From NCBI RefSeq assembly GCF_900188105.1, contig NZ_FZNP01000008.1, forward strand, positions 124,001-188,000: DNA of 64,000 nucleotides. The letters are read 5' to 3'. The notes under the pieces were generated by a model. The model saw nothing but the letters and a program-made list of their open reading frames with translations, searched no databases and was not told where the DNA came from. The DNA comes from Actinomadura mexicana (GTDB lineage Bacteria > Actinomycetota > Actinomycetes > Streptosporangiales > Streptosporangiaceae). The position numbers and the translations under genes are program-made. This document shows positions 9,347 to 60,664 of the stretch, piece by piece (position 1 is the stretch's first letter; each line of letters begins with the position of its first letter).

Positions 9347-11133
9347 CCGGCCGGCTGCGCGCCGAGGGGCCAGGGCGGCGGCTGCGGCCACGGGACGCGG
9401 CCCTCGGGCTCGGGCCGGTCGGGGCGGGCGGTCAGCCAGCGGTGCACGACCTTGCCGGTCGCGTTGCGCGGCAGCTCGGGGATGAAGTGCACGTCGCGGG
9501 GCACCGCGTAGCGGGCGACCTGGGCGTGCACGTAGGCGCGGACGGCGTCGGCGTCGAGCCGGGCACCGGGCCGCAGGACGACGTACGCGGCGAGGCGCTG
9601 CCCCCATTCGGGGTCGGGCACGCCGGTGACCGCGACCTCGTGGATCTCCGGCATCCGCAGCAGGGCCTCCTCGACGTCGCAGGGGACGATGTTCTCGCCG
9701 CCGGACACGACCATGCCGTCGCTGCGGCCGTCCACGAACAGCAGGCCGCGGTGATCGATGTGGCCGAGGTCGCCGGTGGCGAGCAGGCCGTCGCGGACCT
9801 CCATCGGCTCGCCGCCGGTGTAGCCCTCGAACAGCAGCTCGTTCGCCGCGAAGATCTGCCCGCGGGTGGAGCGGCCGAGGCGGCGGCCCTCCTCGTCGAG
9901 GATCGCCAGGGCGGTGTTGCGCGGCGGGCGTCCGGCGGTGCGCGGATCGAGCCGCAGGTCGCGCGGGGTCGCGATGGACACCCAGGACGCCTCGGTGGTG
10001 CCGTAGACGTTGTAGAGCCGGTCGCCGAACGCGTCCATGAACCGGGTGGCGAGGTCGCCGGGCAGCGCGGCGCCGCTCAGCGCCGCGATCCGCAGGGAGG
10101 ACGTGTCGTACCGCTCGCGGCGTTCGGGGGCCAGTTCCAGAATCCGCTGGAGCATGACCGGGACGGCGAACAGGGTGGTGTCGCGGTGGGAGGCGACGGC
10201 CCGCAGCGTCCGCTCGGGGTCGAACCGGCGGTGCAGGACGATCGGCGCCCGCAGCGCCCACGCCATCTGCAGCGCGGCGTAGCCCCAGGTGTGGAACAGC
10301 GGCGCTTCGACGATCATGGTCTGCCGGGCGCGCAGCGGGATCCGGGACGTCATCGAGGCCAGCGGCCACAGGCCGGGACGGGGCGGGCGGCGGGCGCCCT
10401 TCGGACGGCCGGTGGTGCCCGAGCTCAGCATGATCGTCCGGCTCTGGATCTGCGGGGGCGCGGCGGCGGCGGCCGGCGCCGATCGGATGATCTCCTCGAT
10501 GCTCGGCCCCGGGGCGGTGAGGACGGTTTCCGGGGCGGTGCGGGGCGGAGGCAGCGTCGCGGCGGGGACGGGGGCCGACAGCGGGGCGGCGGCGGGCGGC
10601 CGGTGATCGGCCCACACCACGGTCCGGCGCAGCGCGATCGGGACGTTCGCCAGCAGCGGCGCGAACTCGGCGTCCGCGACGAGCAGGGTGGGGCGCAGCT
10701 CGCCGAGTACGGCGCGGATCTGGCCCGTTCCGAAGCCCGTGTTGAGCAGCACGACCTCGGCGCCCCGCCGGGAGCAGGCGACGAGGGTCAGGGCCATGCC
10801 GCGGTGGTTGCGGCACAGGACGCCGACGCGCGGGCGGGGGCCGTGCAGGGGCAGCCCGGTGGCGAGGCGGGCGGCGCGCTCGTCCAGCTCGCCGAACGTC
10901 AGCTCGCCCTCGTCGTCGATCAGGGCGGTGCGGGACGGGGAGCGGGCGGCGGCGGAGGCGACCAGTCCGGCGAGCGTGGTGCCCCAGCGGCGCAGCGTGC
11001 CGATCTGGCGGACCAGCCGGCGGGGGCCGCCGGAGAACAGCAGGCCGGTGCGGAGCAGGAGGGCGGCGAGGTCGCGGATGTGCCCGATCCGCCGGCGCAT
11101 CCCCGGCCGGTAAGCGGGCCTTGCGTGCGTCAC
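9343..11133 (-). CDS. Acyl-CoA synthetase / AMP-dependent ligase (FadD-like)
   Basis: A 596-residue adenylate-forming enzyme that would activate a carboxylic acid with ATP and CoA. LSSGTTGRPKGAR is the phosphate-binding loop, YGTTEASW the adenine motif, and TGDLGHIDHRG the conserved A7/A8 region; RNATGKVVHRW near the C-terminus carries the catalytic lysine. GTG start at 11133 sits behind GGAGGAGGG. It diverges from the thiolase/FadB pair with shared operator-like repeats, suggesting it supplies acyl-CoA to that beta-oxidation unit. Chain-length preference cannot be told. Confidence 0.88.
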   Translation of the reverse strand: MTHARPAYRPGMRRRIGHIRDLAALLLRTGLLFSGGPRRLVRQIGTLRRWGTTLAGLVASAAARSPSRTALIDDEGELTFGELDERAARLATGLPLHGPRPRVGVLCRNHRGMALTLVACSRRGAEVVLLNTGFGTGQIRAVLGELRPTLLVADAEFAPLLANVPIALRRTVVWADHRPPAAAPLSAPVPAATLPPPRTAPETVLTAPGPSIEEIIRSAPAAAAAPPQIQSRTIMLSSGTTGRPKGARRPPRPGLWPLASMTSRIPLRARQTMIVEAPLFHTWGYAALQMAWALRAPIVLHRRFDPERTLRAVASHRDTTLFAVPVMLQRILELAPERRERYDTSSLRIAALSGAALPGDLATRFMDAFGDRLYNVYGTTEASWVSIATPRDLRLDPRTAGRPPRNTALAILDEEGRRLGRSTRGQIFAANELLFEGYTGGEPMEVRDGLLATGDLGHIDHRGLLFVDGRSDGMVVSGGENIVPCDVEEALLRMPEIHEVAVTGVPDPEWGQRLAAYVVLRPGARLDADAVRAYVHAQVARYAVPRDVHFIPELPRNATGKVVHRWLTARPDRPEPEGRVPWPQPPPWPLGAQPAG

Positions 11134-43867: not shown

Positions 43868-44880
43868 GCGGGCTCCAGATCGGGCAGGCTCTGCGCGAGC
43901 CGGGCGGCGGCGCCGACGAGGGCCGGGCCGGGATGGACGATGAGGGCGGTCGGGATGGCGCGCATGTAGTCCTCGACGGGAGGCTTCCCCTCGAAGCGGG
44001 CACGGAACGCGCTGCCCTGCAGCACGTCCGCGATCCGCGGCAGGATCCCGCCGCCGAGATAGACGCCGCCCCGCGCGCCGAGCGTGAGGGCGACGTTGCC
44101 CGCGAGCGACCCGAGCAGCGCGCAGAACATGTCCACGGCCTCGCGGCACAGGGGGTCGTCGCGGTCCTCGCTGATCTGCCGCGGGGTCAGGTTCAGCGCG
44201 GGCCGGCCGTCGATCGCGGCGAGGTAGCGGCGGATGCGGGCCAGGCCCGCCCCCGACAGCAGGTACTCCGCGGTGGCCGCGCCCTTCTCGGCGCGCAGCA
44301 GCCGCGTCACCACGATCTCCCGGTCGGTGGCGGCCGGGACGTCGACCTGGCCGCCCTCGCCGGGCAGCGGAACGTAGCCCGACGGCGTCCGGACGAGCCC
44401 GGCGACGCCGAGGCCCGTGCCGGGCCCGACCACCGCGAGGGGCGCGCCTGGGTCCGGACGCCCCCGCCCGAGGGAGACGAGGTCGTCGTCACCGAGGTGC
44501 GGCAGGGCCAGGGCGAGCGCCTCGAAGTCGTTGATGACGTCCAGATGCGCCAGGCCGAGATGGGCGCGCACCGCCTCCGGGTCGCCCTCGGGCCAGCCCG
44601 CGTTGGTCAAATGGAACGTGCCATTCGTGACGGGGCCCGCCACGGCCAGGCACGCCGCCACCGGGCGCACGCCGACCGCGTCGAGATAGGCGGCCGCGGC
44701 CTCCGCGAGCCCCGGATGGTCGCGGGTCGGCAGCGCCCTGACCTCGGAAAGGGCACCCCCGGGGCCCTCCACCAGCCCGAACCGGGCATTGGTCCCGCCC
44801 ACGTCCGCGACCAGCCACGTCCCGCTCGGTACCTGCGACGGGGGAGCGACCCCCCACTCCCCCCGGTCCGCTTCGCTCAT
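43864..44880 (-). CDS. glk: Glucokinase
   Basis: A 338-residue ATP-dependent hexokinase of the Glk (E. coli-like, non-ROK) type. [15 protein letters not shown] is the phosphate-binding motif; [12 protein letters not shown] and [14 protein letters not shown] contact glucose, with the catalytic aspartate in [17 protein letters not shown] and LPGEGGQVD complete the active site. ATG 44880 shares one base with the edd stop. It phosphorylates glucose entering the pathway, fitting its place between edd and eda. Confidence 0.94.
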
Positions 44881-46688
44881 CAGAAGATCCCCGCGCCACG
44901 TTCGGCCGGGCCCACGGCGTGGCGGAACGCCTGGAACAGCTCCCGCCCCGTGCCGTACGTCTGGTCGGGCGGCCCCGCGGCGGGCTCGCGGGCGGCGAAC
45001 TCCTCGGCGGAGACGAGGACCTCCAGCACCCCCGCGTCCGCGTCGAGCCGGACGACGTCGCCGTCGCGGACGCGGGCGAGCGGCCCGCCCGCCGAGGCCT
45101 CCGGCGACACGTGGATCGCGGCGGGCACCGCCCCGGAGGCGCCCGACATGCGGCCGTCGGTCACCAGCGCGACGCGGTGCCCCCGGTCCTGGAGCACCGA
45201 CAGCGGCGGGGTGAGCCGGTGCAGCTCCGGCATGCCGTTCGCGCGCGGCCCCTGGTTGCGGACGACCGCGACGACGTCCCGGTCCAGCTCCCCGGCGGCG
45301 AACGCCTCCTGGAGCGCCTCCTGCGAGTCGAACACGCGGGCGGGGGCCTCGATGGTCCGGTGCTCCGGCCGGACCGCCGACACCTTGACGACCGCCCGTC
45401 CGAGGTTGCCGCGCACGGTGTGCAGGCCGCCGTGCGTGTCGAACGGCTCGGCGGCCGGGCGCAGGACCTCGGTGTCGCCGGACTCCCCGGGCGCCTCCCG
45501 CCACTCGACCTTGCCGCCGACGAGCTCCGGAACGTTGCGGTAGGCCGCGAGGGTGTCGCCGCCGACCGTCCGCGCGTCCTCGTGCAGGAGCCCGGCGTCG
45601 ATCAGCTCGCCGATGAGGAACGCGGTGCCGCCCGCCGCGTGGAAGTGGTTCACATCGGCGGTCCCGTTCGGGTAGAGGCGGGTGAGCAACGGCGTGACCT
45701 TGGACAGCTCGTCGAAGTCGTCCCAGGTCAGCTCGATGCCCGCCGCGGCCGCCATGGCCACCAGGTGCAGCGTGTGGTTGGTCGAGCCGCCCGTCGCGAG
45801 CAGCGCGACGACGCCGTTGACGAACGCGCGCTCGTCGAGCATCTCCCCGATCGGGGTGTAGCCGTCGCCCAGGTCCGTGAGCTTGAGGATGCGCCTGCCC
45901 ACCGCCTCGGTGAGGCCGTCGCGCAGCTTGGTGCCCGGCGGGACGAAGCTGGCGCCCGGCAGGTGCAGCCCCATGACCTCCATGAGCAGCTGGTTGGAGT
46001 TGGCCGTCCCGTAGAAGGTGCAGGTGCCGGGCGAGTGGTAGGACGCCGCCTCGGCGGCGAGCAGCTGCTCGCGCCCGATCTCACCCGCCGCGAACCGCTT
46101 GCGGACCTTGGCCTTCTCGCCGTTCGGCAGCCCCGACGCCATCGGCCCGGCGGGCACCAGGATCACCGGCAGGTGCCCGAACGACAGCGCCCCGATCACC
46201 AGCCCCGGCACGATCTTGTCGCACACGCCGAGCAGCAGCGCGCCGTCGAACATGTCGTGCGACAGCGCCACGGCCGTCGCCATCGCCACCACGTCCCGGC
46301 TGAACAGGGACAGCTCCATGCCGGCCCGGCCCTGGGTGATGCCGTCGCACATCGCGGGGACGCCGCCGGCGAACTGCGCCGTGCCGCCCCCCGCGCGGAT
46401 CGCGGACTTCAGGATCTCGGGGTAGTCCTGGAGCGGCTGGTGCGCGGAGAGCATGTCGTTGTAGGCCGACACGATCGCGATGTTGGGCGTGACGTCGCCG
46501 CGCAGCCACAGCTTGTCCTGGACGCCGCAGGCCGCGAAGCCGTGCGCGAGGTTCGCGCACCCCATCCCGCCGCGGACCGGGCCCTGCGACCGGGCCTCCC
46601 GGATCCGGTTCAGGTACGCGCCGCGGGGTCCGGCGCTCCGCTCGACGACGCGCCGGGTCACTGCCGCCAGCACGGGGTGCACAACCAT
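44880..46688 (-). CDS. edd: 6-phosphogluconate dehydratase
   Basis: A 602-residue IlvD/Edd-family [4Fe-4S] dehydratase that converts 6-phosphogluconate to KDPG. Cluster cysteines lie in [18 protein letters not shown] and [22 protein letters not shown] and [17 protein letters not shown] are the conserved C-terminal blocks. ATG 46688 has GGAG 7-8 nt upstream; a TTG at 46700 is in frame. First gene of the Entner-Doudoroff operon, divergent from the ROK regulator with an inverted repeat between them. Confidence 0.95.
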
Positions 46689-46741
46689 CAGATGCTCCAA
46701 GACCAGGGGATCGCAGGATCACCAAACTAGCGAGACATCGG

Positions 46742-46836: not shown

Positions 46837-47964
46837 ATGCCCCGCCCCGTCACCCGCCCGGCCACCGGCGGCGACATGCTGCGCCTGATCCGCGAGGACG
46901 GCGTGGCCACCCGCGCCGAGCTGGGCCGCATCACCGGGCTGTCCCGGCCCGCCGTGGCGTCCCGCATCGCGGCCCTGGTCTCGCGCGGCCTGGTGGTCGA
47001 GCGCGCCGACGGGCCCTCCACGGGCGGGCGCCCCCCGGCCCGGCTGGAGTTCAACGCGGCGGGCGGCGCCGTCCTCCTCGCCAACCTCGGCCAGTCCCGC
47101 GGCCAGCTCGCCGTCTGCGACCTCGCCGGCACGACCCTGGCCCGCGCCGACGGGCCCCCGGCGGAAGTCAGCCCGGGCAAGACGCTTCCCCGCCTGTTCG
47201 AGCAGTGGGAGTCCTTGCTCGCCGCGTCCGGCACCGACCCGTCGAGCATCCGCGGCGTCGGCCTCGGCGTCCCCGACGCCGTCGAGCACGTGGCCGGGAG
47301 CTGGGACGCCGTGGAGATCGGCGCCCCCATCTCCGAGCGCTTCGGCGTCCCCGCCTACCTCGACAACGAGGTCAACGCCGCCGCCCTCGGCGAGCACCAG
47401 GCCCACCCCGGCGTCGGCGACCTCCTGTTCGTCAAGGTGTCGACCGGGATCGGCGCGGGCATCATCGCGGGCGGCCGCATCCAGCGCGGCGCCCTCGGCG
47501 CGGCCGGGGAGATCGGCCACATCCCGGTGCCCGTCCCCGGCGAGGCCCCCTGCCGCTGCGGCAACGTGAACTGCGTCGAGGCCGTCGCCGGCGGCACCGC
47601 CCTGCTGGCCCGCTCCCCCGCCGACGACCTGCCCGCCCTGGCGGCGCTCGCCCGCTCCGGCGACCCCGCGACCGTCGCCCTGCTCCGCGACGCCGGCCGC
47701 CGCATCGGCGAGGTCGTCGCCACCGCCGTCAACCTCCTCAACCCCGCGGTCGTCGTCCTCGGCGGCGATCTCGCGGGCGCGGACGAGCCGCTGATCGCCG
47801 GCGTGCGCGAGATCGTCTACCAGCGCGCCACGGTGCTGGCGACCCGCGACCTGCACATCGAACCGAGCCGCCTGGGCGAGAGCGCGGGCCTGACGGGCTG
47901 CGCCGCCATGGTTCTGGACCGCATCCTCTCCCCCGACGCCGTCGACGCCGCGGCCGGCGCCTGA
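46837..47964 (+). CDS. ROK-family transcriptional regulator
   Basis: A 375-residue sugar-responsive regulator. An N-terminal winged helix (RLIREDGVATRAELGRITGL, then SRPAVASRIAALVSRGLV) is followed by a ROK domain with GVGLGVPDAVE, STGIGAGIIAGG and the zinc motif CRCGNVNCVE, close to CxCGxxGCxE. The kinase-like sugar site is present, so glucose or a phosphorylated derivative may be the effector. Divergent from edd-glk-eda, its probable target. ATG 46837 chosen; TTG 46825 is in frame. Confidence 0.9.
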   Translation: MPRPVTRPATGGDMLRLIREDGVATRAELGRITGLSRPAVASRIAALVSRGLVVERADGPSTGGRPPARLEFNAAGGAVLLANLGQSRGQLAVCDLAGTTLARADGPPAEVSPGKTLPRLFEQWESLLAASGTDPSSIRGVGLGVPDAVEHVAGSWDAVEIGAPISERFGVPAYLDNEVNAAALGEHQAHPGVGDLLFVKVSTGIGAGIIAGGRIQRGALGAAGEIGHIPVPVPGEAPCRCGNVNCVEAVAGGTALLARSPADDLPALAALARSGDPATVALLRDAGRRIGEVVATAVNLLNPAVVVLGGDLAGADEPLIAGVREIVYQRATVLATRDLHIEPSRLGESAGLTGCAAMVLDRILSPDAVDAAAGA

Positions 47965-47984
47965 GAAGCGAGGGCCGCGCGGGG

Positions 47985-48000
47985 AGAGCGTCCGCTCTTT
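47985..48000 (+). terminator. Short hairpin after the ROK gene
   Basis: AGAGC (47985-47989) and GCTCT (47994-47998) form a 5-bp stem followed by TT; a second perfect 6-bp hairpin lies at 48037-48052. Together they may end ROK transcription. Confidence 0.35.
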
Positions 48001-48322
48001 CGTGCGCGACGCGGTGTTAGCACACCCGGGCGGCGGGTCGCCACCGGGCGACGTGGCAGCCATCGGTCATGACGTGCACGGAAACCGCCCGCAACTCAAT
48101 GGGCAAAGCGATCATCGATCCGAGTGACGACAAACTCGACATATCCCCCCATTATGCAATGGCAGCCGATGATCACCATCACTCTCTGCATGCGCGCCGA
48201 TCGTCACATCCCCCGCCAGGTAAGACTTTTATACCGCCCGGAAGAGCTCGGACGAATGAGACTGACTGGCGTTTCCGGAGGATTCGTGGTTACCGTGTCC
48301 TTGCTCAACGAAAGCAACATCC

Positions 48323-48362
48323 GATCGTTCTTTGACTTTTGGCCCCAAAAGACAAAACGATC
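48323..48362. promoter_or_regulatory. Long bulged inverted repeat upstream of lanL
   Basis: CTTTTGG (48336-48342) and CCAAAAG (48345-48351) flank CC as a perfect inverted repeat, and the pairing continues outward through TTTG/CAAA to GATCGTT/AACGATC with small bulges, spanning 40 bp, 59 bp before lanL. No T-tract follows, so an operator or leader structure is more likely than a terminator. Confidence 0.55.
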
Positions 48363-48420
48363 AATAACCTAGGACCGGGCGACCCGGGTGGTCGAGCGGA
48401 AAAGGAGAGGGGGAGCGGGG

Positions 48421-51273
48421 ATGGCGGACTTCCATTTCAGTGTCCTGTCCGGGGCGGCGGCCGCCGACAGCGGCGACACCCGTCTGCTCGACGTCCTCGA
48501 CCGGGCGCTCGCCGCGGCGGACGGCCCGCTTCACTGGAAGTCGCTGCGCAGCGGGATGTGGGCCCACGTCCGCCCGGAGAACGGCGAGTGTCCCCAGCAG
48601 GGCTGGAAGCTGCACGTCTCCGCGACGCCGGCTTCGGCCCAGGACGTGCTGGCCCGCTCGCTGCCCGTGCTGCTGGCGGGCCGTTCCATGTTCAAGTTCG
48701 CCGCCACCCGCGACCACGTCGCGGCCATGACCGCGCGCAACACCTCGCGCGGCCATTCGGGGAAGTTCATCACCGTCTACCCGGTCGACGACGACGAGGC
48801 CGTCCGCCTCGCGGCGGAACTGCACGTGGCGACCGCCGGCCTCCCCGGGCCGCGCATTCTGTCCGACCGCCCCTACGGGCCCGGCAGCCTTGTGCATTAC
48901 CGCTATGGAGCGTTCGTCGAGGTGCGCCGGATCACCAATGACGGATTCTACGCGTGGGTAATTCTCGACCCCGACGGCAAACCCGTAGAAGACCGCCGCG
49001 GCGCCACCTACACGCCGCCCCCCTGGGCCGTCTGCCCATTTCCCCAGGACGTCCCACCGGCGGAGGGCCAGAAAGACGAGGACACAGCCGGCGGGTTCGG
49101 AGGCGCCCAGAAGAGCGCCGGCCAGAATGGCGCCGAGAACCGAAAAGGAATCCGTATCGGATCGCGGTTCACCGTCCACGAGGCGATCCGCCACACCAAC
49201 AAGGGCGGCGTGTACCGGGCGACCGACACCGAGACCGGCGAGGCGATCGTCATCAAGGAGGGCCGCCCGCACGTGGACGTCGACGCCAAGGGGCGTGACA
49301 CCCGCGACCGGCTGCGGACGGAGGCCCGCGTGCTGGAGGCGGTCGAGACCCTGGGCATCGCCCCGCGCCCTGTGGCGCTCTTCGCGCAGGCCGGCCACCT
49401 CTTCCTGGCGCAGGAGATGATCCCGGGCACCTCGTTGCGGCAGTGGATCGCCGATGTGGTCGGCGACGCGGGATGGGGCCCGCACGTCACCCCCGTCCTG
49501 GAGATGGGCGGGCGCCTGGCCGCCCTGCTGGCGAAGGCGCACGACGCCGGGCTCATCGTGCGCGACTTCAACCCGAGCAACATCATGGTGCGCCCGGACG
49601 GCACCCCGGTGATGATCGACCTGGAACTGGCCCTCACCGCCGACGACACCGAGCCGGAGGGGATGCGGGTGGGCACCCCCGGCTACAGCGCGCCGGAGCA
49701 GATGGCCGGCGCCGCGCCGGACCGGACGGCCGACCATTTCGCCCTCGGCGCGACCCTCTGCCACGTCCTCACCGGCGGGCCCCCCTACTTCCTGGACGAG
49801 AGCCCCGCGCCCAGGCCCCTGAGCGAGCGCCTGGCGGAATGGCTGGCCGCCCGCACCCTGGACCTCGACCTGCCCGGCTCGCTGGTCCCGCTGCTGCTCG
49901 GCCTGATGGCCGACGAGCCCGGCCATCGCTGGACGCCGCACCGGGCGCGGGAGGCGCTGGCGCGGATGGTCCCGGACCGCGCGGCCGGGAGCCGCGGGGC
50001 GCGGGGCGTTCCGGCGGAAGGCGGCGAGACCGCACCGCAGGCCGGTCCCACCCCGTCACTGCGGAAGCAGTGCCGGCTGTCCATCGCCGGGATCGTCGAC
50101 CAACTGATCACCACCATGAACCCGGAGTCGGCCGAGACGCTCTGGCCCGCCTCGTGCGTCTACGGCGCTCCCGACCCCTGCAGCCTCCAGCACGGCGCCG
50201 CGGGGACCCTGGGCGCCCTGACCCGATGTTTCGAGGTCGGCGCCGACCCGCGCCTCGCCGAGGCGATCGCCGGCGCGGGCCACTGGATCCTGCGGCGGCT
50301 GGAGAGGGACGGCGACCGTCCGCCGGGGCTGTACTTCGGCACGGCGGGCGCCGCGTGGGCGGTGCTGGACGCCGGCCTGGCCCTGGACGACGCCGGCCTG
50401 GTCGAGGGCGCACTCGCCGTCGCCGACCGCCTGCCGGAGTCGGTCCCCAGCCCGGACGTGACGCACGGGACGGCGGGCCTCGGGCTCGCGGCCCTGCACC
50501 TGTGGTCCCGCACCGGGCAGGCGCGGTTCGCCGAGCGCGCCGTCGCCGCCGCCGACGCCCTCGCCGAGACCGTCGAGGAACGGGAGGGCGGGCTCGACTG
50601 GAGCACGCCCGCCGAGATCGAGTCCAAGCTCGCCGGGGCGCGCTACTACGGGTTCGCGCACGGCGTCTCGGGCGTCGGCTGCTTCCTGCTCGCCTGCGCC
50701 GGGTCGGTCGGCGGCGACGCCCACCGGGCGCTCGCCGCCGGTGTCGGGGAGACGCTGCTCGACACCATGATCGACACTGGGCGGTCGGCGATGTGGGCGG
50801 CCAGTTCGGGTGACATCGCCACCGCGCCGTTCTGGTGCCACGGCTCGGCCGGCATCGGCGGCTTCCTGGGCCGCCTCGGCCAGGCCACCGGCGACGGCCG
50901 CTTCCAGCGGGCCGCCGAGATGTCCGTCCGCGCCGTCATGGACAACCGCTGGCGCGCGATCCTGGGGCAGTGCCACGGCCTGGCCGGCAACGGCGACTTC
51001 CTGCTCGACATGGCCGCGCTCACCGGCACCGAGCGGCACCGTGACGACGCGTGGCGGCTGGCCCAGATCGTTCTGGCCAACCGGGCGCACCGCGGCGGGC
51101 GGGTGGTGTTCCCCGACGAGCAGGGCGGTGTCTCGACCTCCTGGGGAGACGGCCTGGGCGGCGTCCTCGGTTTCCTGGTGCGCCTCCAGCACGGTACGCC
51201 GCGGCTGTGGATGGCCGACGAGGCCGCGCAGGCAGCCGCCGCCGAACCGTCGATCGCCGGGCGGGCGTCATGA
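48421..51273 (+). CDS. lanL: Class IV lanthipeptide synthetase (LanL)
   Basis: A 950-residue three-domain enzyme expected to phosphorylate precursor Ser/Thr, eliminate phosphate and add Cys thiols. The lyase domain (about 1-210) has GWKLHVS with K63 and H65. The kinase domain (about 245-530) has K279 in IVIKEG, RDFNPSN with D382 and N387, and D400 in IDLE in place of DFG. The cyclase domain (about 545-930) has C806 in FWCHGSAG and C851-H852 in GQCHGLAG. Those three zinc ligands are what separate class IV LanL from class III LanKC. ATG 48421 sits behind GGAGAGGGGGAG. Its stop overlaps the peptidase gene. Confidence 0.93.
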   Translation: MADFHFSVLSGAAAADSGDTRLLDVLDRALAAADGPLHWKSLRSGMWAHVRPENGECPQQGWKLHVSATPASAQDVLARSLPVLLAGRSMFKFAATRDHVAAMTARNTSRGHSGKFITVYPVDDDEAVRLAAELHVATAGLPGPRILSDRPYGPGSLVHYRYGAFVEVRRITNDGFYAWVILDPDGKPVEDRRGATYTPPPWAVCPFPQDVPPAEGQKDEDTAGGFGGAQKSAGQNGAENRKGIRIGSRFTVHEAIRHTNKGGVYRATDTETGEAIVIKEGRPHVDVDAKGRDTRDRLRTEARVLEAVETLGIAPRPVALFAQAGHLFLAQEMIPGTSLRQWIADVVGDAGWGPHVTPVLEMGGRLAALLAKAHDAGLIVRDFNPSNIMVRPDGTPVMIDLELALTADDTEPEGMRVGTPGYSAPEQMAGAAPDRTADHFALGATLCHVLTGGPPYFLDESPAPRPLSERLAEWLAARTLDLDLPGSLVPLLLGLMADEPGHRWTPHRAREALARMVPDRAAGSRGARGVPAEGGETAPQAGPTPSLRKQCRLSIAGIVDQLITTMNPESAETLWPASCVYGAPDPCSLQHGAAGTLGALTRCFEVGADPRLAEAIAGAGHWILRRLERDGDRPPGLYFGTAGAAWAVLDAGLALDDAGLVEGALAVADRLPESVPSPDVTHGTAGLGLAALHLWSRTGQARFAERAVAAADALAETVEEREGGLDWSTPAEIESKLAGARYYGFAHGVSGVGCFLLACAGSVGGDAHRALAAGVGETLLDTMIDTGRSAMWAASSGDIATAPFWCHGSAGIGGFLGRLGQATGDGRFQRAAEMSVRAVMDNRWRAILGQCHGLAGNGDFLLDMAALTGTERHRDDAWRLAQIVLANRAHRGGRVVFPDEQGGVSTSWGDGLGGVLGFLVRLQHGTPRLWMADEAAQAAAAEPSIAGRAS

Positions 51274-53156
51274 CAGAGCCCCTGCCGGATCTTCCCCCCG
51301 TGCCGAGCCGGTTCGGCTTCGCCTTCTCGGCCGACGGCCGCTGGGCCACCTGCCTGCGGTCCGCGCAGGACAGCGTCGTCCTGGAGCGCTGGGACCTGAC
51401 CTGGCCGCGCCCGACCCTGCGGACGCTCGACGACGCCGGCCTTCCGGGCGGGGACGAGACGGGCGGCCGGATCGTCGACCGCCGCAGCGGGGCGCTGCCG
51501 CTGAACGACGGCCGCGTCCTGGTCGTGCGGCCCGCGGTCGGCGACCGCGGGGAGCCCGCGGGCCACGGGACCCTCGTCGCCGCCGAGGCGACCCCCGCCG
51601 GGCTGAGGATCACCCGCTCGTGGGCGGTGCCGCGGATGCTCGCCGGGTTCCTGCTGGCCGCTCCGGGACAGGCGCAGACCGTCGTGCTCGTGGTCGTCGA
51701 GAACGAACGGCACTCGCGGATCTGGCGGGTCTCGCCCTCGTCCCCCGTCCTGGAGCCGGTGCTGCGGATCCCCGGCGTGCTGTCGGGAGGCGTCTGGGCC
51801 GACGAGGGCCGCACCCTCGCCCTCGACCACGACGGCGCCGGGCACCGGACCGAGGGAATCCTGGTCGACCTGCGCGAGCGCGCCTGGCGGCCGTTCTGGT
51901 CGGTCTCCGACACCACCAGCGACCGGATCGCGGCCTACAACCCGCGCTCGGGCGCCCTCGCGGTGACCACCACCACGCCGGGCGCGCAGCAGCGGGGCGC
52001 GCCGCAGATCGGGCTGCGCCTCCCCGGCGGCGGTCCCGCCCGGTTCCCCGAGATCCTCAACCGCTCGGCCGCGTACCGGACCCCGCTGACCTTCGACGCC
52101 GCGGGCGAGCACCTGCTCGTCCGGGAGATCGCCGGCGCCACCGCACGCCTGGCCGTGTACGCCACCGGGAACGACCGGATCACGCCGGTCCCCGGCCCGG
52201 CGGGCATGCTCTGGGCGCCCGCCCACTGGGCCGGCGACGGCCGGATCCACGTCCGCTTCTCGGCCCCCCACCAGCCGCCGACGCTCGCCACGGTACGGCG
52301 CCCCGCGCGCACCGGCTGGGACATGGCCGCGCATCCCTCCGACGGCGCGGCGGCCTGGCGGCACGCCGAGCTCGTCGAGCTCGCCGGCCCCGCGGGGCCC
52401 ATCGAGGCGATCGTCTACGGCGGCCCCGGCTGGCGCGACCGGCCCCGGCTGGTGCTGGCCCTGCACGGCGGCCCGCTGGCGGCGTGGCACTACGAATTCG
52501 AGCCGCTCTTCCAGTACCTGGCCGCCGCGGGCGTCTCCGTCGTGGCCCCCAACTACCGGGGCAGCACCGGCTACGGCGACGAGCACCTGCGGCCCGTCCT
52601 CGGCGACTGGGGCGGCCCCGACCTGAACGACGTCGTCCACCTCGGGCACGCCATCGCGGACGGCCGCGACACCGCGCTGCCGCGCCCCGTCGTGCTCGGC
52701 GCCAGCTACGGCGGGTTCCTGGCGCTGCTCGCGGCCTGCCGCACCCCCGGCCTGTGGTCGGGATGCGCCGCGCTCGCGCCCTTCACCTCGGCGTCCGGCC
52801 TCCACCGCACCGCCACCGGGATCGTCAGGGACCGCGTGTCGCGGCTCGGCCTCTGCGACGTCGGCGACGAGCAGGACGCCCGGCGCGACGTCCTGCGGGC
52901 GTGCGAGGCGCTGGCGGCGCCGCTGCTGGTGGCGCACGGCGTCCGGGACGAGGTCATCCCGGTGGAGCAGTCCAGGGCGCTGCGCCGGCGCCTTCTCGAA
53001 CTCGGCAGGACCGAAGGAGTCGACTTCGACTACCTGGAGACCGCCGACGACCACAACGGGGTCGTCCAGGCATGGTCCCCGGTCCTCCGCCAAGCGGTGG
53101 TCCGCTTCTGCCTCGCGGCGGGGCGGACCTTGGCCCTCGACAACGAAAGGAGGTGA
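51270..53156 (+). CDS. S9 prolyl-oligopeptidase-family peptidase, candidate leader protease
   Basis: A 628-residue serine peptidase: beta-propeller-like region (about 10-370), then an alpha/beta-hydrolase domain. Triad: S479 in GASYGGF, D560 in HGVRDEVIP, H595 in DDHNG; LALHGGPLAAWHYEF and NYRGSTGYGDEH are S9 landmarks. No signal peptide, so it acts in the cytoplasm. ATG 51270 overlaps lanL by 4 bp and the stop lies inside the ribosome-binding site of the precursor gene. S9 peptidases serve as leader peptidases in some class III lanthipeptide clusters (FlaP, as I recall), so trimming of the precursor leader is the natural guess. Confidence 0.88.
   Translation: MTEPLPDLPPVPSRFGFAFSADGRWATCLRSAQDSVVLERWDLTWPRPTLRTLDDAGLPGGDETGGRIVDRRSGALPLNDGRVLVVRPAVGDRGEPAGHGTLVAAEATPAGLRITRSWAVPRMLAGFLLAAPGQAQTVVLVVVENERHSRIWRVSPSSPVLEPVLRIPGVLSGGVWADEGRTLALDHDGAGHRTEGILVDLRERAWRPFWSVSDTTSDRIAAYNPRSGALAVTTTTPGAQQRGAPQIGLRLPGGGPARFPEILNRSAAYRTPLTFDAAGEHLLVREIAGATARLAVYATGNDRITPVPGPAGMLWAPAHWAGDGRIHVRFSAPHQPPTLATVRRPARTGWDMAAHPSDGAAAWRHAELVELAGPAGPIEAIVYGGPGWRDRPRLVLALHGGPLAAWHYEFEPLFQYLAAAGVSVVAPNYRGSTGYGDEHLRPVLGDWGGPDLNDVVHLGHAIADGRDTALPRPVVLGASYGGFLALLAACRTPGLWSGCAALAPFTSASGLHRTATGIVRDRVSRLGLCDVGDEQDARRDVLRACEALAAPLLVAHGVRDEVIPVEQSRALRRRLLELGRTEGVDFDYLETADDHNGVVQAWSPVLRQAVVRFCLAAGRTLALDNERR
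53146..53156 (+). promoter_or_regulatory. Near-ideal ribosome-binding site of the precursor gene
   Basis: AAAGGAGGTGA matches the 16S rRNA anti-Shine-Dalgarno almost end to end, 5 bases before ATG 53162, and contains the peptidase stop codon. It would give high, coupled translation of the precursor. Confidence 0.85.
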
Positions 53157-53161
53157 ATTGC

Positions 53162-53317
53162 ATGAACACGTTTGACGGTGACCTCGTGGCCGCTCTGCAG
53201 GAGCTGCCCGAGACCGACCCCGTGGAGATCGACGGCATCCAGCTCGGCGGTACCTGCAACTGCGTCGGTCTGCTCACGCTGCTGAACACCGTGTGCATCG
53301 GCATCTCCTGCGCCTGA
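53162..53317 (+). CDS. lanA: Class IV lanthipeptide precursor (venezuelin-like)
   Basis: A 51-residue peptide. The leader (1-30) contains LVAALQELPETDPVEIDG, with the LxxLQ-type helix recognised by class III/IV synthetases, and ends LGG. The core (31-51) starts TCNCVGLL and ends NTVCIGISCA: T31, T39, T43 and S49 can be dehydrated and C32, C34, C45 and C50 can form thioether rings. From memory, venezuelin (VenA) has almost this core, with Glu where this has Asn33, and a similar ELPETDPV-like leader. Gene order lanL-peptidase-lanA-ABC-ABC and its strong ribosome-binding site support the role. Confidence 0.95.
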   Translation: MNTFDGDLVAALQELPETDPVEIDGIQLGGTCNCVGLLTLLNTVCIGISCA

Positions 53318-53375
53318 TGCACCGCAACCCATGCGGAACCCGGGACCCCTGAGAAGAACCCCGGCCCGCAGAACC

Positions 53376-53412
53376 CCGGTCACGGACCGGCCACGAGCCG
53401 GTCCGTGACCGG
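53376..53412 (+). terminator. Strong hairpin after the precursor gene (attenuator)
   Basis: A perfect 15-bp stem (53376-53390 with 53398-53412) and 7-nt loop start 58 bases after the precursor stop. There is no T-tract. Such hairpins after lanthipeptide precursor genes usually end most transcripts, keeping exporter mRNA low and stabilising precursor mRNA. Confidence 0.75.
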
Positions 53413-53465
53413 ACCCACTTGCGAGTGTAGAAGATTTCCCTGGACCGTGAACGGAGCCGTGGCGC

Positions 53466-55202
53466 GTGGCCCTCACCGGCACATCGGGCGACTCCGCGGC
53501 GCTGCGCGCCGGCGGCAGGCGGCTGCTGCGCGGCGCCATGGCCCGCTTCCGGCCGGCCATGGGCGTGCTCGTCCTGCTCACGGCCGTCCGCGTCACCGCG
53601 ACGCTGGCGACGCCGATCATGCTGGCCAGGGCGGTCGACGCGGCCCGTGCCCAGCAGGACGCCGGCGCCTCCGCCGCGTGGCTCGCGCTCGTCCTGGCCG
53701 CGGCGGCCGTCGCCACCACCGGCGAGGACGTGCTCGGCTCCTACTGCGGCAGCGACATCACCGCCTGGCTCCGGCACCGGCTGCTCAGGCACGTGCTGGC
53801 CCTCGGGCCGGAGGGGCGGCGCCGCTTCCCCGCGGGGGACGTGCTGTCCCGGCTCACCGAGTCCGCGTCGGGCCCTGCGGCGTTCCCCGTCCTGCTGCTG
53901 TCGGCCGCCGCCACGCTGGCCACCACCGTGGGCGCGCTGGCCGGACTGGCCCTGATCGACTGGTGGCTCGCCGCCGCGTTCGCGGCCGGGCTGCCGCCGC
54001 TGCTGGTCGCGCTGCGCGTGTTCGTCGTCCGGGCCACCGAGCCGTTCGCCCGCTACCAGGCGTGCCAGGCGGCGATCGCGACGCGGCTGCTCGACGCCCG
54101 GCAGGGCGTCCGGACGATCCGGGCGAGCGGCACCGCCGCCGCCGAGGTGCGGCGCATCCTCGCGCCGCTCCCCGGGCTCGGCCGGGCCGGCCGGGAGACG
54201 TGGGCCGTGCAGGGCAAGGTCAGCCGGCGGCTCGCGCTGCTGGCCCCCCTCACCCAGGTCCTGGTCGTCGGCGTCGCGGGCGTCCGCCTGGCCGGCGGCG
54301 AGATCACCACCGGCCAGCTCGTGGGCGCCCTGTCCTACGCCGCCATGGCCGCCGCGTCGGCGTCGGTGTTCGACACCGTCGTCGCGCTGCTCAACTGCCA
54401 GGTCGGCGCCGGTCGGATCGACGAGATCCTGACGGCCGTCCCGGCGGTCGGGCCGCCCGCGCGTCCGGTGCGGCTGCCGGACGGGCCCGGCGAGCTGCGG
54501 CTGCGCGGCGTCACCGTCCGGCTCGGCGGCCGCGCCGTCCTCGACGGCCTCGACCTCGACGTGCCGCCCGGGACGACCGTCGCGGTCGTCGGCACGTCCG
54601 GGACGGGCAAGAGCGTGCTGATGTCGACCATCGGGCGGCTCCTCGACCCGGACGAGGGAGTGGTCGAACTCGACGGCGTCCCCGTCACCGCCGTCCCTCT
54701 CGCGGAGCTGCGGCGCGCCGTCGCCTACGCCTTCGAACGCCCCGCGCTGCTCGGCGCGACCGTGCGCGAGACGATCACCTACGCCCGCCCCGGCGCGACG
54801 CGCGCCGAGGTGCACCGCGCCGCCCGCGACGCCGTCGCCGACGCCTTCATCCGGGCCCTGCCCAACGGTTACGACACCCCTCTCGACCGCGCCCCGCTGT
54901 CCGGCGGCGAACTGCAGCGGCTCGGCCTGGCCCGCGCCGCGCTCGCCGACGCCCGGGTCGTCCTCCTCGACGACGCCACCAGCAGCCTCGACACCGCCAC
55001 GGAGATGAAGGTGACCCAGGCGCTCCGGCAGATCCTCGGCGGGCGGACCAGCCTGGTGGTGGCGCGCCGTCCGGCGACGGCCGCCCGCGCCGACCTCGTC
55101 GCCTGGCTGGACGCCGGACGCGTGCGGGCGCTCGCCCCCCACGCCGAACTGTGGGCCGACCCGGCCTACCGCGCGGTCTTCTCGACCCGGGCGGCCTCGT
55201 GA
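53466..55202 (+). CDS. ABC exporter subunit with degenerate ATPase site
   Basis: A 578-residue half-transporter: six-helix membrane domain (about 25-310) fused to a nucleotide-binding domain. Walker A GTSGTGKS starts at G376 and LSGGELQ at L478 is intact, but the catalytic glutamate after Walker B is Asp (D503 in LLDDATSS), the H-loop histidine is Arg (R534 in VVARRP), and the Q-loop position is Glu (E424). Such changes mark the non-hydrolysing half of heterodimeric exporters. GTG 53466 has GGAG about 9 nt upstream. It overlaps the next gene by 4 bp. Probable exporter of the lanthipeptide, as with VenT. Confidence 0.88.
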   Translation: MALTGTSGDSAALRAGGRRLLRGAMARFRPAMGVLVLLTAVRVTATLATPIMLARAVDAARAQQDAGASAAWLALVLAAAAVATTGEDVLGSYCGSDITAWLRHRLLRHVLALGPEGRRRFPAGDVLSRLTESASGPAAFPVLLLSAAATLATTVGALAGLALIDWWLAAAFAAGLPPLLVALRVFVVRATEPFARYQACQAAIATRLLDARQGVRTIRASGTAAAEVRRILAPLPGLGRAGRETWAVQGKVSRRLALLAPLTQVLVVGVAGVRLAGGEITTGQLVGALSYAAMAAASASVFDTVVALLNCQVGAGRIDEILTAVPAVGPPARPVRLPDGPGELRLRGVTVRLGGRAVLDGLDLDVPPGTTVAVVGTSGTGKSVLMSTIGRLLDPDEGVVELDGVPVTAVPLAELRRAVAYAFERPALLGATVRETITYARPGATRAEVHRAARDAVADAFIRALPNGYDTPLDRAPLSGGELQRLGLARAALADARVVLLDDATSSLDTATEMKVTQALRQILGGRTSLVVARRPATAARADLVAWLDAGRVRALAPHAELWADPAYRAVFSTRAAS

Positions 55203-56908
55203 CGGCCCCGCCCGCCGCGCGCCTGCTGCACCGCCACCTGCGCGGACAGTGGCCCGCGATGCGCCGCCTGTCCGCCTGGTCGGTCGTGGAGTCCCTGCCG
55301 ATGTTCGCGTCCGGCCTGCTCCTGGCCCGCGCCGTCGACCACGGGTTCCTCGCGGGACGCACCCTGACCGGCCTCGGCTGGCTGGGCGTCCTCGCGGCCC
55401 TGTACGCCGTCGGCGCGGTCGCGACCGGACGGGTCTACCCGTGGCTCGCCGCGACCGTCGAACCGCTGCGCGACTCGCTGGTCACCGAGGTCGTCGCCGC
55501 CGCCCTCCGCCGGATGGCCGACCGCACCCCGGACGCCGCCGGCGCAGGCGTCTCCCAGGTCACCGAGCAGGCCGAGGCCGTCCGGGCCCTGGTGGGGACC
55601 GCGCTGCGCAACGTCCGCCAGCTGGTCTCCGCCGGCGCCGCCGCGCTCGTGGGCCTGGCCCTGCTGTCCCCGCCGCTGGCCCTCGTCATCTGCCTGTCGG
55701 TGGCCCTCGCCCTGGGGGTGTACGCGGCCTTCGTGGGCCTGCAGATCCGCCGCTACCGGGCCGTCATCCGCCAGGCCGAGCGCATCGGGGAGGCCGCCGC
55801 CGGCGTCGTGCACGGTGTCCGGGACGTCGCCGCCTGCGCCGCCGAGGACCGCGCCGCCGCCGCGGTGGGCGAGGTCGTGGACGCACAGGCGGAGGCCCTG
55901 CGCGCCTACGCGCGCACCCGCTGGGTCCGCCTCCCCGTCCTGGCCCTCGGGGTGCACCTGCCCCTGCTCGCCCTGCTCGTCCTGGCGCCGTACCTGACCG
56001 CGCACCACGGACTCACCGCCGGGCAGATCGCGGGCGGCGCGGGCTACCTGGTGACCGGGCTCCAGCCGGGCATCACCGTCCTCGTCGACGCGGGCGGCAC
56101 CCTCCTGCTCAGCCTCGCGGTGGTCCTGGGCCGCCTCGCCGAGGTCTGCACCGTCCCCGAAGCGCCGGCGCCCGGCACGGCGACGGCCGAATCGTCCGGC
56201 ATCGAGGCCGACCACGTCACCTTCGCCTACTCCCCGCACGCCGCCCCCGTCGTCGAGGACCTGTCGCTCCACGTCCCCGAGGGGACGCACCTGGCCGTCG
56301 TCGGCCCCAGCGGCACCGGCAAGTCCACCCTCGCGAACCTGCTCACCGGCCTCCTGGAACCCCGGAAGGGCAAGATCACCCTCGGCAAGGTCCCCCTCCC
56401 CCGCCTGGACCCGGCACACCTGCGCTCGAAGATCACGCTGATCCCACAGGAGAGCTACGTCTTCGCCGGCACCCTCCGCGACAACCTGGCCTACCTGAAC
56501 CCCGAGGCCACCAGACCCAACCTGGACGAGGCCGCGGCCGCCGTCGGACTTCTGGACCTCGTCCAACGCCTGGGCGGCTACGAGACGGACATCCCACCCG
56601 GCGGCGGCGACCTCTCCCAGGGCGAACGCCAGCTCATCACCCTGGCACGCGCCTACCTGTCCCCGGCCGCGGTCATCGTCCTGGACGAGGCCACCAGCCA
56701 CCTGGACCCCGCCACCGAGGCCCGCGCCGAACAAGCCCTGGCGACCCGCGGCGGCACCCTGATCGTCATAGCCCACCGCATCACCTCGGCCGAACGAGCT
56801 GACCAGGTCCTCCTGCTGGACGGCCCCGTCCCCCTCCTGGGCACCCACGAGACCCTCCAAACCCGCAGCCAAACCTACGCAGACCTGGTAGGCCACTGGC
56901 TGACCTGA
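55199..56908 (+). CDS. ABC exporter subunit with complete ATPase site
   Basis: A 569-residue half-transporter. Membrane domain about 15-300; Walker A GPSGTGKST from G369, IPQESYVF as Q-loop, DLSQGERQ as signature (SQGE variant), catalytic E497 in IVLDEATSHLD and H526 in IAHRITSA. It keeps the residues that its partner has lost, so together they make one active ATP site and one degenerate site. GTG 55199 overlaps the partner gene. No C39 peptidase domain is present in either subunit, which is why leader removal needs a separate enzyme. Confidence 0.9.
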   Translation: MTAPPAARLLHRHLRGQWPAMRRLSAWSVVESLPMFASGLLLARAVDHGFLAGRTLTGLGWLGVLAALYAVGAVATGRVYPWLAATVEPLRDSLVTEVVAAALRRMADRTPDAAGAGVSQVTEQAEAVRALVGTALRNVRQLVSAGAAALVGLALLSPPLALVICLSVALALGVYAAFVGLQIRRYRAVIRQAERIGEAAAGVVHGVRDVAACAAEDRAAAAVGEVVDAQAEALRAYARTRWVRLPVLALGVHLPLLALLVLAPYLTAHHGLTAGQIAGGAGYLVTGLQPGITVLVDAGGTLLLSLAVVLGRLAEVCTVPEAPAPGTATAESSGIEADHVTFAYSPHAAPVVEDLSLHVPEGTHLAVVGPSGTGKSTLANLLTGLLEPRKGKITLGKVPLPRLDPAHLRSKITLIPQESYVFAGTLRDNLAYLNPEATRPNLDEAAAAVGLLDLVQRLGGYETDIPPGGGDLSQGERQLITLARAYLSPAAVIVLDEATSHLDPATEARAEQALATRGGTLIVIAHRITSAERADQVLLLDGPVPLLGTHETLQTRSQTYADLVGHWLT

Positions 56909-56947
56909 GAGACACCTGCGTCATGCCATACCGGCCTGGCGCCGAGC

Positions 56948-57356
56948 ATGGAGTCCCAAGGAGAGCCGGGCTCTTTCGCCGCCGGGTACACGGAGCACCT
57001 GCTCGACCGGCTTTCATCCCTCCGGCTCGGCTTGGCCGCCGCCGAGCGGGGCTCGGACGCGCTTGTCTCCATGGGGTGGAGCGGGCCGCTGAACTACACC
57101 GACGACACCGGGATAGATCGCGTCAGTGGTCCGCAGCTGGGAGGATCGCTTCGGTGCCCAGGTCGTCGGCGCCGGTTTCGCCGACCTGTATCCGAGCGTC
57201 GCGGCTCCACCGTCGACCTACGAGGAGGCGCTCCGACTCGCCGCCGAGCATCCCGCGTTCTGCCCGGACGACATCTGGCAGAACAGCTCCCCCGCCACAC
57301 TCGCCTCATAGGCCCAGGACCTCGTCGACCTCAACGCATGGGAGTTCTGGTGGGAC
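56948..57356 (+). pseudogene. Decayed DUF4253 gene
   Basis: An intact-looking first part (from ATG 56948: LVSMGWSGPLNYTDDTG) loses frame near 57115-57125. The sequence continues one frame over as VRSWEDRFGAQVVGAGF and FCPDDIWQ, hits TAG at 57309-57311, and resumes with AWEFWWD, the usual DUF4253 ending. One frameshift plus one nonsense codon in a row of family landmarks shows a dead gene. DUF4253 function is not known. Confidence 0.75.
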
Positions 57357-59752: not shown

Positions 59753-59788
59753 GGCAGGCTCCTGGTGGTTTTCGAGGGGGAGGTTGTG

Positions 59789-60664
59789 ATGGGTTCTGCG
59801 CGGGTGAGCGTGACGGTGCTCGGGCTTGGGGAGATGGGGGCCGCGCTGGCGGGAGCGATCCTGGACGGCGGCCATCCGACCACCGTGTGGAATCGCACGG
59901 CGGGGAAGGGCGACGCGCTGGTCGCCAAGGGGGCGAGTCAGGCCAGCGGCGTCCGGGAGGCCGTTGCCGCCGGGCGGGTCGTGGTGGTCAACGTCAAGGG
60001 CAACTCCGTCGCCCGTGAACTGCTGGAGACGGCAGGAGACGACCTGCGCGGACGCGTCGTCGTCAACCTGACGGACGGGACGTCGGACGAGGTCAGGGAG
60101 GTGGCCGCGGCGGTCGCCGAGCGCGGCGGGGAGTACCTGCACGGGCAGATCATGACCATCGCGCCGGGCGTCGGGCATCCGGACGCGACGGTCTTCTACA
60201 GCGGCTCCGCGGACGTTCACGAGCGTCACCGGCAGGTGCTGCGGCTTCTCAGCGGGCACGCACCTCTGGTGTCCGACGACCCCGGTGTCGCGGTCCTCTA
60301 CGGCATGGCCGTCCACGGGACGATGTGGGGGCTCCTCAACGGGTTCCTGCACGCGGCCGCGGTGCTGTCGGACGAAGGTGTCGAGGTCGGACGGTTCCTG
60401 AAGGAGGCCGAGAGCCCGCTTGCGGCGCTGTCGATGTTCCTGCCGTCGATCGCGGACGAGGTGGACCGGGGCCGGTTCGCGACGCCCTACGGGGCGCTGC
60501 GCCACCATCTGCCCTCGATCGAGGACCTCGCGCGGGAGAGCCGGGCGCGGGGCATCGACGACGAGCTTCCCGAGTACTCCCGCGCGCTCGTGGCGGCGGC
60601 GATCGAACGGGGCCACGGAGACGACAGCTACTCCCGGCTCGTCGAACACTTCCGCAGGCCCTAG
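59789..60664 (+). CDS. NAD(P)-binding reductase, imine-reductase / 3-hydroxyisobutyrate dehydrogenase-like
   Basis: A 291-residue Rossmann protein. VTVLGLGEMGAALAGAIL is the GLGxMG nucleotide-binding motif, followed by TTVWNRTAGKGDAL with the Arg expected for NADPH. NLTDGTSDEVRE replaces the usual DxST catalytic stretch, and the middle helix reads AVHGTMWGLLNGFLHAAA, without the catalytic lysine of HIBADH. That matches the imine-reductase subgroup. ATG 59789 follows GAGGGGGAGG. A MerR-type promoter lies upstream, suggesting stress or xenobiotic induction. Confidence 0.85.
   Translation: MGSARVSVTVLGLGEMGAALAGAILDGGHPTTVWNRTAGKGDALVAKGASQASGVREAVAAGRVVVVNVKGNSVARELLETAGDDLRGRVVVNLTDGTSDEVREVAAAVAERGGEYLHGQIMTIAPGVGHPDATVFYSGSADVHERHRQVLRLLSGHAPLVSDDPGVAVLYGMAVHGTMWGLLNGFLHAAAVLSDEGVEVGRFLKEAESPLAALSMFLPSIADEVDRGRFATPYGALRHHLPSIEDLARESRARGIDDELPEYSRALVAAAIERGHGDDSYSRLVEHFRRP

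Follow-up and report, generated by a model that had tools for sequence, protein, structure and literature searches.

The closest described relative of the gene cluster analysed here is that of venezuelin in Streptomyces venezuelae, with the organisation venL-venA-venT-venH. As described by Goto et al. (2010; PMC2843593), this cluster has no protease gene, and venezuelin was detected neither from its own host nor in S. lividans. Protease genes are likewise absent from most characterised class III and class IV clusters (PMC8960859), and for this reason leader removal in class IV is poorly understood (PMC2843593, PMC8960859, as excerpted). S9 peptidases have been described in class III: FlaP, which cleaves its modified precursor (PMC10885120), NorP, found in a class III cluster (PMC10206099), and the prolyl oligopeptidases of one class III family, for which the name LanPB is used (PMC7268733), each according to excerpts of the paper cited. 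For class IV, a passage of PMC10885120 has SflA processed by an AplP-like enzyme, an M1 metallopeptidase, which is encoded outside the SflA cluster.

The window (the whole stretch of DNA that was analysed, 64,000 nucleotides in length, being part of contig C27 of an 8.79-Mb Actinomadura genome) holds a class IV-type gene cluster of five genes at 48421-56908, as judged from open reading frames and profile matches (Table 1). In common with the FlaP, NorP and LanPB systems, the cluster combines a kinase-type lanthipeptide synthetase with an S9 peptidase; those systems, however, are class III (LanKC), the comparison with FlaP and NorP being by description, whereas that of the window is class IV. 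With SflA it shares a class IV peptide that needs a leader protease, the difference being that in the window this would be a serine peptidase inside the operon. It also departs from the protease-free venL-venA-venT-venH organisation: the window has an S9 gene between lanL and the precursor gene, and two half-transporters where the published cluster has VenT and VenH. The window peptide is ordinary and of a known kind, and the clustered S9 peptidase is the part that is not. From the sequence comparisons set out below, we consider it likely that this is a venezuelin-type class IV operon with a dedicated exit module, in which the S9 enzyme serves as a dedicated cytoplasmic leader peptidase.

Table 1 Features of the class IV-type cluster, in window coordinates
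Feature	Coordinates	Strand	Length, matches and remarks
lanL, class IV lanthionine synthetase, lyase-kinase-cyclase	48421..51273	+	950 aa; NF038150, RamC_N, Pkinase, LANC_like
S9-family peptidase, candidate leader peptidase	51270..53156	+	628 aa; PF00326; beta-propeller + alpha/beta-hydrolase
VenA-family precursor	53162..53317	+	51 aa; NF038147; leader MNTFDGDLVAALQELPETDPVEIDGIQLGG, core TCNCVGLLTLLNTVCIGISCA (predicted boundary)
16-bp perfect hairpin, without T-run	53376..53412	+	between precursor and transporter genes
ABC half-transporter 1 (ABC1)	53466..55202	+	578 aa; ABC_membrane + ABC_tran
ABC half-transporter 2 (ABC2)	55199..56908	+	569 aa; ABC_tran; long alignments to exporter half-transporter models

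The start codon of the S9 gene overlaps the stop codon of lanL (ATGA), the precursor gene starts 5 nt past the S9 stop with its ribosome-binding site within the 3' end of the S9 gene, and the two transporter genes overlap each other. The sole sizeable intergenic gap, of 148 nt, lies between the precursor gene and ABC1, and contains the hairpin. An earlier note on this DNA had described five coupled or closely spaced genes on one strand, and all five were found, on the plus strand. The cluster is flanked upstream by an IlvD-type dehydratase gene on the opposite strand (44880-46700) and downstream by a reductive-aminase-like gene (59765-60664); in the flanking frames tested, neither a regulator nor an immunity gene could be recognised. 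ABC1 has both Pfam transporter domains and ABC2 has ABC_tran only. Neither has a Pfam match to a C39 peptidase domain, and a double-glycine cut by such a transporter domain was rejected on that ground.

LanL scores 1096.8 bits against NF038150 (an NCBI equivalog, cut-off 650) and 499.1 bits against the class III model, which is under that model's cut-off of 575. Its Pfam domains are a RamC-type N domain, a kinase and LANC_like, and it carries the motifs WCHG at C806 and QCHG at C851/H852, which align with the equivalent motifs of the LanL at L176, a locus of the Streptomyces group described below. We take C806, C851 and H852 to be the zinc ligands (Cys/Cys/His). Three such ligands in the cyclase domain are a class IV trait, absent in class III. 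The precursor scores 98.1 bits against NF038147, the VenA family (cut-off 35). The three-domain synthetase with three zinc ligands of the earlier note was thus recovered, and its assignment of the cluster to class IV, venezuelin type, agrees with a LanL and a precursor that are both far above the NCBI cut-offs. These two scores, together with a gene order that recurs in the genus, argue that the cluster is not a product of chance.

L176 is treated as venezuelin's own type because its precursor fits all the VenA positions named in the excerpted text of PMC2843593 (C32, C34, C45 and C50, PFA at 27-29, and A29-A30). The comparison group that contains it is presumably Streptomyces; VenA was found in 31 of its 295 genomes, at 32 loci. 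In a phylum-wide draw of 396 genomes, VenA was found only in the window's own genome. Shared with the venezuelin cluster, as represented by L176, are a LanL that is 52% identical, all of the core but one residue (N33 for E33), and the same Cys and Ser/Thr positions. The window core, TCNCVGLLTLLNTVCIGISCA, is one residue off the commonest core of the Streptomyces group, and it is in this sense that the peptide is ordinary. It keeps all the venezuelin offsets, namely four Cys and four Ser/Thr. Among the genus precursors (24, the window included) the Cys offsets are kept in 22 and the Ser/Thr offsets in 23, and among those of the Streptomyces group both are kept in 32 of 32; three core sequences are letter-identical between the two. 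Since the offsets are kept, the window product is expected to be a venezuelin whose rings follow the venezuelin plan. Its computed monoisotopic masses, allowing for four dehydrations, are 2037.987 (T31-A51) and 3019.500 (V21-A51).

The hairpin after the precursor gene is conserved as a structure. In an alignment of the window with 22 other loci (L007 being excluded), 99.7% of 368 cells are paired, counting G-U, and four pairs show two-sided changes; none of 500 shuffles reached the pairing or the two-sided value, and slid controls were 15-47% paired. As plain DNA, a perfect repeat of at least 12 is present in 14 of the 24 clusters looked at, and there is no Rfam match in 47900-57200. Perfect inverted repeats of at least 10, with other sequences, occur within 160 nt after venA at 22 of the 32 Streptomyces-group loci. 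The hairpin is possibly an attenuator or an mRNA stabiliser, and it would probably keep the precursor mRNA above the transporter mRNA.

The S9 peptidase matches PF00326 with an E-value of 3.4e-21. Its triad, S479, D560 and H595, is unchanged in every LanL-linked row that covers those positions. His556 is kept in the linked S9 rows and is mostly Gln in the unlinked ones, and at position 482 most linked rows have Ala and 21 of 21 unlinked rows have Gly, the window S9 itself having Gly. The AlphaFold2 model consists of a propeller and a hydrolase (pLDDT 89.3, pTM 0.90). The Pfam match, the triad and the modelled propeller-plus-hydrolase fold are all those of peptidase family S9. Among the matches listed, the nearest PDB structures are acylaminoacyl peptidases, whether by sequence (phmmer, 1.4e-17), by Foldseek (1.2e-31) or by VIA-align (Z 30.7, with an rmsd of 5.4 across 539 residues and with ties among rows within one Z unit); the fold matches also include the puromycin hydrolases 3azo/3azp and the puromycin-hydrolysing peptidase 7c72. 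PF02897, the N-terminal domain of the prolyl oligopeptidases (S9A), had no match in the window S9 at E 0.001. As modelled, the enzyme looks like an acylaminoacyl-peptidase-type S9. FlaP cuts after proline, but with acylaminoacyl peptidases as the nearest structures this is not to be assumed for the window enzyme. Acylaminoacyl-peptidase-type S9 enzymes have short peptides as their substrates, and acylaminoacyl peptidases are not known to act as leader endopeptidases. No signal peptide is obvious by eye in the window S9, which makes a cytoplasmic location probable.

Rather than being peculiar to the window strain, the S9 gene is regularly present in the ven clusters of the genus. The 25 named LanL loci nearest the window come from Actinomadura (24) and Spirillospora albida (one). 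An S9 gene follows LanL in 24 of them, and the 25th (L021) stops at a contig edge. The order LanL-S9-VenA-ABC1-ABC2 is seen at 23 named loci, in two of which, L010 and L011, ABC2 is truncated where the contig stops; at L019 the contig ends inside S9. A further 17 genus loci, several of them from the same species as named loci, all agree with this order (ABC2 being cut in L076). A count was made by hand over 65 genus genomes (the window's included), among the matches listed, best first, counting LanLs from 977 bits upwards and S9s from 60% identity upwards. It gave a ven-type LanL in 35 genomes, a close S9 in the same 35, and neither in 30; the genomes being related, these are not 35 independent events. 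LanL and S9 are on one contig in 34 of the 35; the exception is G993, where each of them is found at the edge of a contig. No other S9 among the matches listed in the genus, pieces of the same gene aside, exceeds 100 bits outside G1000 and G979, each of which holds a second LanL-S9 pair. At L280 (G1003) the LanL and ABC1 matches change frame, which reflects either decay or assembly errors, and a second LanL/LanKC-like gene (326 bits) stands between VenA and ABC1.

It is worth adding that the window's own genome has other lanthipeptide-type loci. These are a LanB-type dehydratase with a LanC-like gene, which has an S9 of the unlinked type about 6 kb away (L275, contig C30), a LanM (L277, C14), a LanKC with a homologous ABC pair (L278, C7), and a LanL-like synthetase that scores below the cut-off (L276, C20).

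In the wider family, too, LanL is commonly paired with an S9. A search of 298 genomes gave 90 with a LanL above the cut-off, from which the best-scoring 60 places outside the genus were taken. An S9 lies at most 1.3 kb downstream of LanL, on the same strand, at 39 of the 60, as found with a profile built from those same S9s. The gap between LanL and S9, with the 17 further genus loci included, has a median of 21 nt and is at most 1110; a precursor-like frame lies between them in L084, L087 and L092. The remaining 21 places have no linked S9, 12 of these being a single LanL clade, and together with the 32 of 32 Streptomyces VenA loci without one they indicate that LanL systems can do without a linked S9. 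No VenA match was found at any of the 39 S9-linked outside loci. Candidate precursors outside the genus, picked by a rule that combines Cys/Ser/Thr content and a ribosome site, often have leaders of the form MELDxxALDMLPA. Many of the LanL-S9 clusters (L102, L096, L113, L100 and others) have between one and four small Cys-rich precursor candidates, whose leaders are of this MELDxxALDMLPA type and whose cores vary. At L089 (G457) a 66-residue S9 remnant lies between LanL and a precursor candidate, which is apparently S9 loss in progress, and L281/L109 (G459) has VenA and LanL with no S9, half-transporter pair or VenT match within 16 kb. A literature search, with key class III and class IV papers outside its reach, found no printed report of an S9 beside LanL, and the pairing may already be in print.

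In a tree of 93 S9 rows, 72 LanL-linked sequences (31 ven, 41 other) are split from 21 unlinked ones with an SH-aLRT of 99, the unlinked set being from the genus only, with two duplicate pairs and several long branches, and the ven S9s form one clade (SH-aLRT 100). L203 was dropped from these rows, its S9 stretch being short. The LanL tree has 99 rows, which include 12 genus loci and 26 of the 32 Streptomyces-group LanLs (six pieces shorter than 850 aa were dropped). In it all VenA-type LanLs fall together, corresponding to one change, and S9 presence takes nine changes. Both trees come from quick searches, with SH-aLRT as the only support measure and long branches flagged. S9 and LanL distances, compared over 46 pairs, correlate with r 0.979 (a value reached in 0 of 999 permutations), which adds little to the conserved linkage, since operon genes are expected to diverge together. 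Congruence was judged from this correlation and by eye, and the long-branched L101, L116 and L117 are placed differently in the two trees. A hybrid origin, in which a ven LanL borrowed an S9 module, was dropped, because by eye the two trees largely agree in their groups and all ven S9s fall in a single clade.

None of the 32 Streptomyces-group VenA loci has a linked S9, and none has a half-transporter pair on the VenA strand, three of the loci being short stretches (L169, L190, L198); a VenT-like ATPase lies downstream in 30. The best VenT match in the window is the ABC1 frame, at 55 bits. L172, which was counted as not linked, has a weak S9-like gene of the unlinked type some 2 kb upstream of lanL; this gene reaches 41 bits against the window S9 and 77 against the linked-S9 profile. 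At L188, two weak ABC matches, of 91 and 63 bits, lie just downstream on the opposite strand. In the gene-order comparison proposed in the earlier note, the order LanL-S9-VenA-ABC1-ABC2 recurs in the genus, and Streptomyces ven clusters have neither a linked S9 nor the half-transporter pair. That the Streptomyces S9 has moved elsewhere in the genome was rejected: among the matches listed, best first, for the 31 VenA-bearing genomes there is one linked-type S9, in G846 (190.8 bits), and this belongs to a separate LanL cluster, L286; the other S9 hits listed reach at most 80.5 bits. Some Streptomyces-group frames match the propeller half of the linked S9 only (L287 at 8857-9915 on the minus strand, L288-L297 and L299), and no LanL match above 35 bits was found near them in the stretches taken.

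The ten-residue linker at positions 21-30 of the window precursor is VEIDGIQLGG. All 24 S9-bearing VenA precursors of the genus have a linker that ends in L-[GS]-G, as against none of 32 in the S9-less Streptomyces group, and at L109, where VenA stands with a genus-type LanL and no S9, it ends in AAD. S9 may therefore read the linker, but the difference is confounded with genus and L109 is a single data point. Proline 20 was rejected as a sign of S9, as a PETDP-type motif is also found in 32 of 32 S9-less Streptomyces-group precursors.

The route that we propose is as follows. By analogy with VenL, LanL would carry out phosphorylation, elimination and cyclisation at the core's four Ser/Thr and four Cys residues. 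The S9 enzyme, probably in the cytoplasm, would then take off the leader, most likely by a cut in linker 21-30, either in one step at LGG/T31 or after P20 with trimming to follow, the exact site being a guess. The heterodimeric ABC exporter would then secrete the peptide. The earlier note had placed a dedicated candidate leader protease in the operon, and this is upheld by co-occurrence with LanL across the 65 genomes, the gene order, the LanL-linked S9 subfamily and the intact triad. Its wider claim, that the cluster carries the whole pathway, goes further than the sequence shows: the flanking frames tested gave no regulator or immunity gene that could be recognised, and the genome has five M1 peptidase matches outside the cluster, any of which could still trim the product.

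Those M1 matches bear on the alternative that the first cut is made by another protease, AplP-like or general, and that S9 only trims linker residues or degrades the freed leader. Such a division of labour would resemble the case of SflA, and would suit an enzyme whose best fold matches, the acylaminoacyl peptidases, act on short peptides. It is nevertheless an unlikely one, since the linked S9s are a subfamily of their own and their strict co-occurrence with LanL exceeds what leader recycling seems to need. We give far less weight to the idea that S9 has a protective role in the producer and, like puromycin hydrolase, acts by inactivation, here of peptide that is finished or mis-made. Although 3azo/3azp and 7c72 are among the fold matches and the flanking frames tested yielded no recognisable separate immunity gene, Streptomyces-group clusters with identical cores have no S9, a ringed core should resist peptidases, and venezuelin analogues showed no antimicrobial activity in the results excerpted from PMC2843593. 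That the S9 gene came to its place by chance and has simply been inherited there is nearly excluded, for although S9-type matches are frequent (24 in the window's genome, many of them weak or partial), the adjacency is kept across genera, the co-occurrence is exact, the triad is unchanged and the subfamilies are split.

The preferred reading, S9 as dedicated leader peptidase, also bears on history. LanL and S9 look like an old pair. The most likely course of events is that S9 was lost from the ven clusters of Streptomyces, which export by another transporter, loss being the preferred direction. Such a loss would account for the absence of any protease gene from the venezuelin cluster. A more far-reaching version is tentative, and we hold it to be possible but somewhat doubtful: LanL and an acylaminoacyl-peptidase-type S9 would be an ancestral co-inherited pair, the S9 forming a new lineage of RiPP leader peptidase, distinct from the prolyl oligopeptidase FlaP, that cuts the linker (at L-[GS]-G/T in ven clusters), and Streptomyces would have lost both S9 and the half-transporter pair, so that identical cores are released by two protease/export systems.

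The S9 gene accompanies the ven cluster across the genus, and the enzyme it encodes is a strong candidate for the long-missing activity by which the finished peptide is freed. If it is indeed the leader peptidase, it would be a ready tool for releasing venezuelin-type peptides, the two groups would provide a natural experiment in which the same core occurs with and without the peptidase, and there would be a route to the products of the many LanL-S9 clusters of Actinomadura and its relatives.
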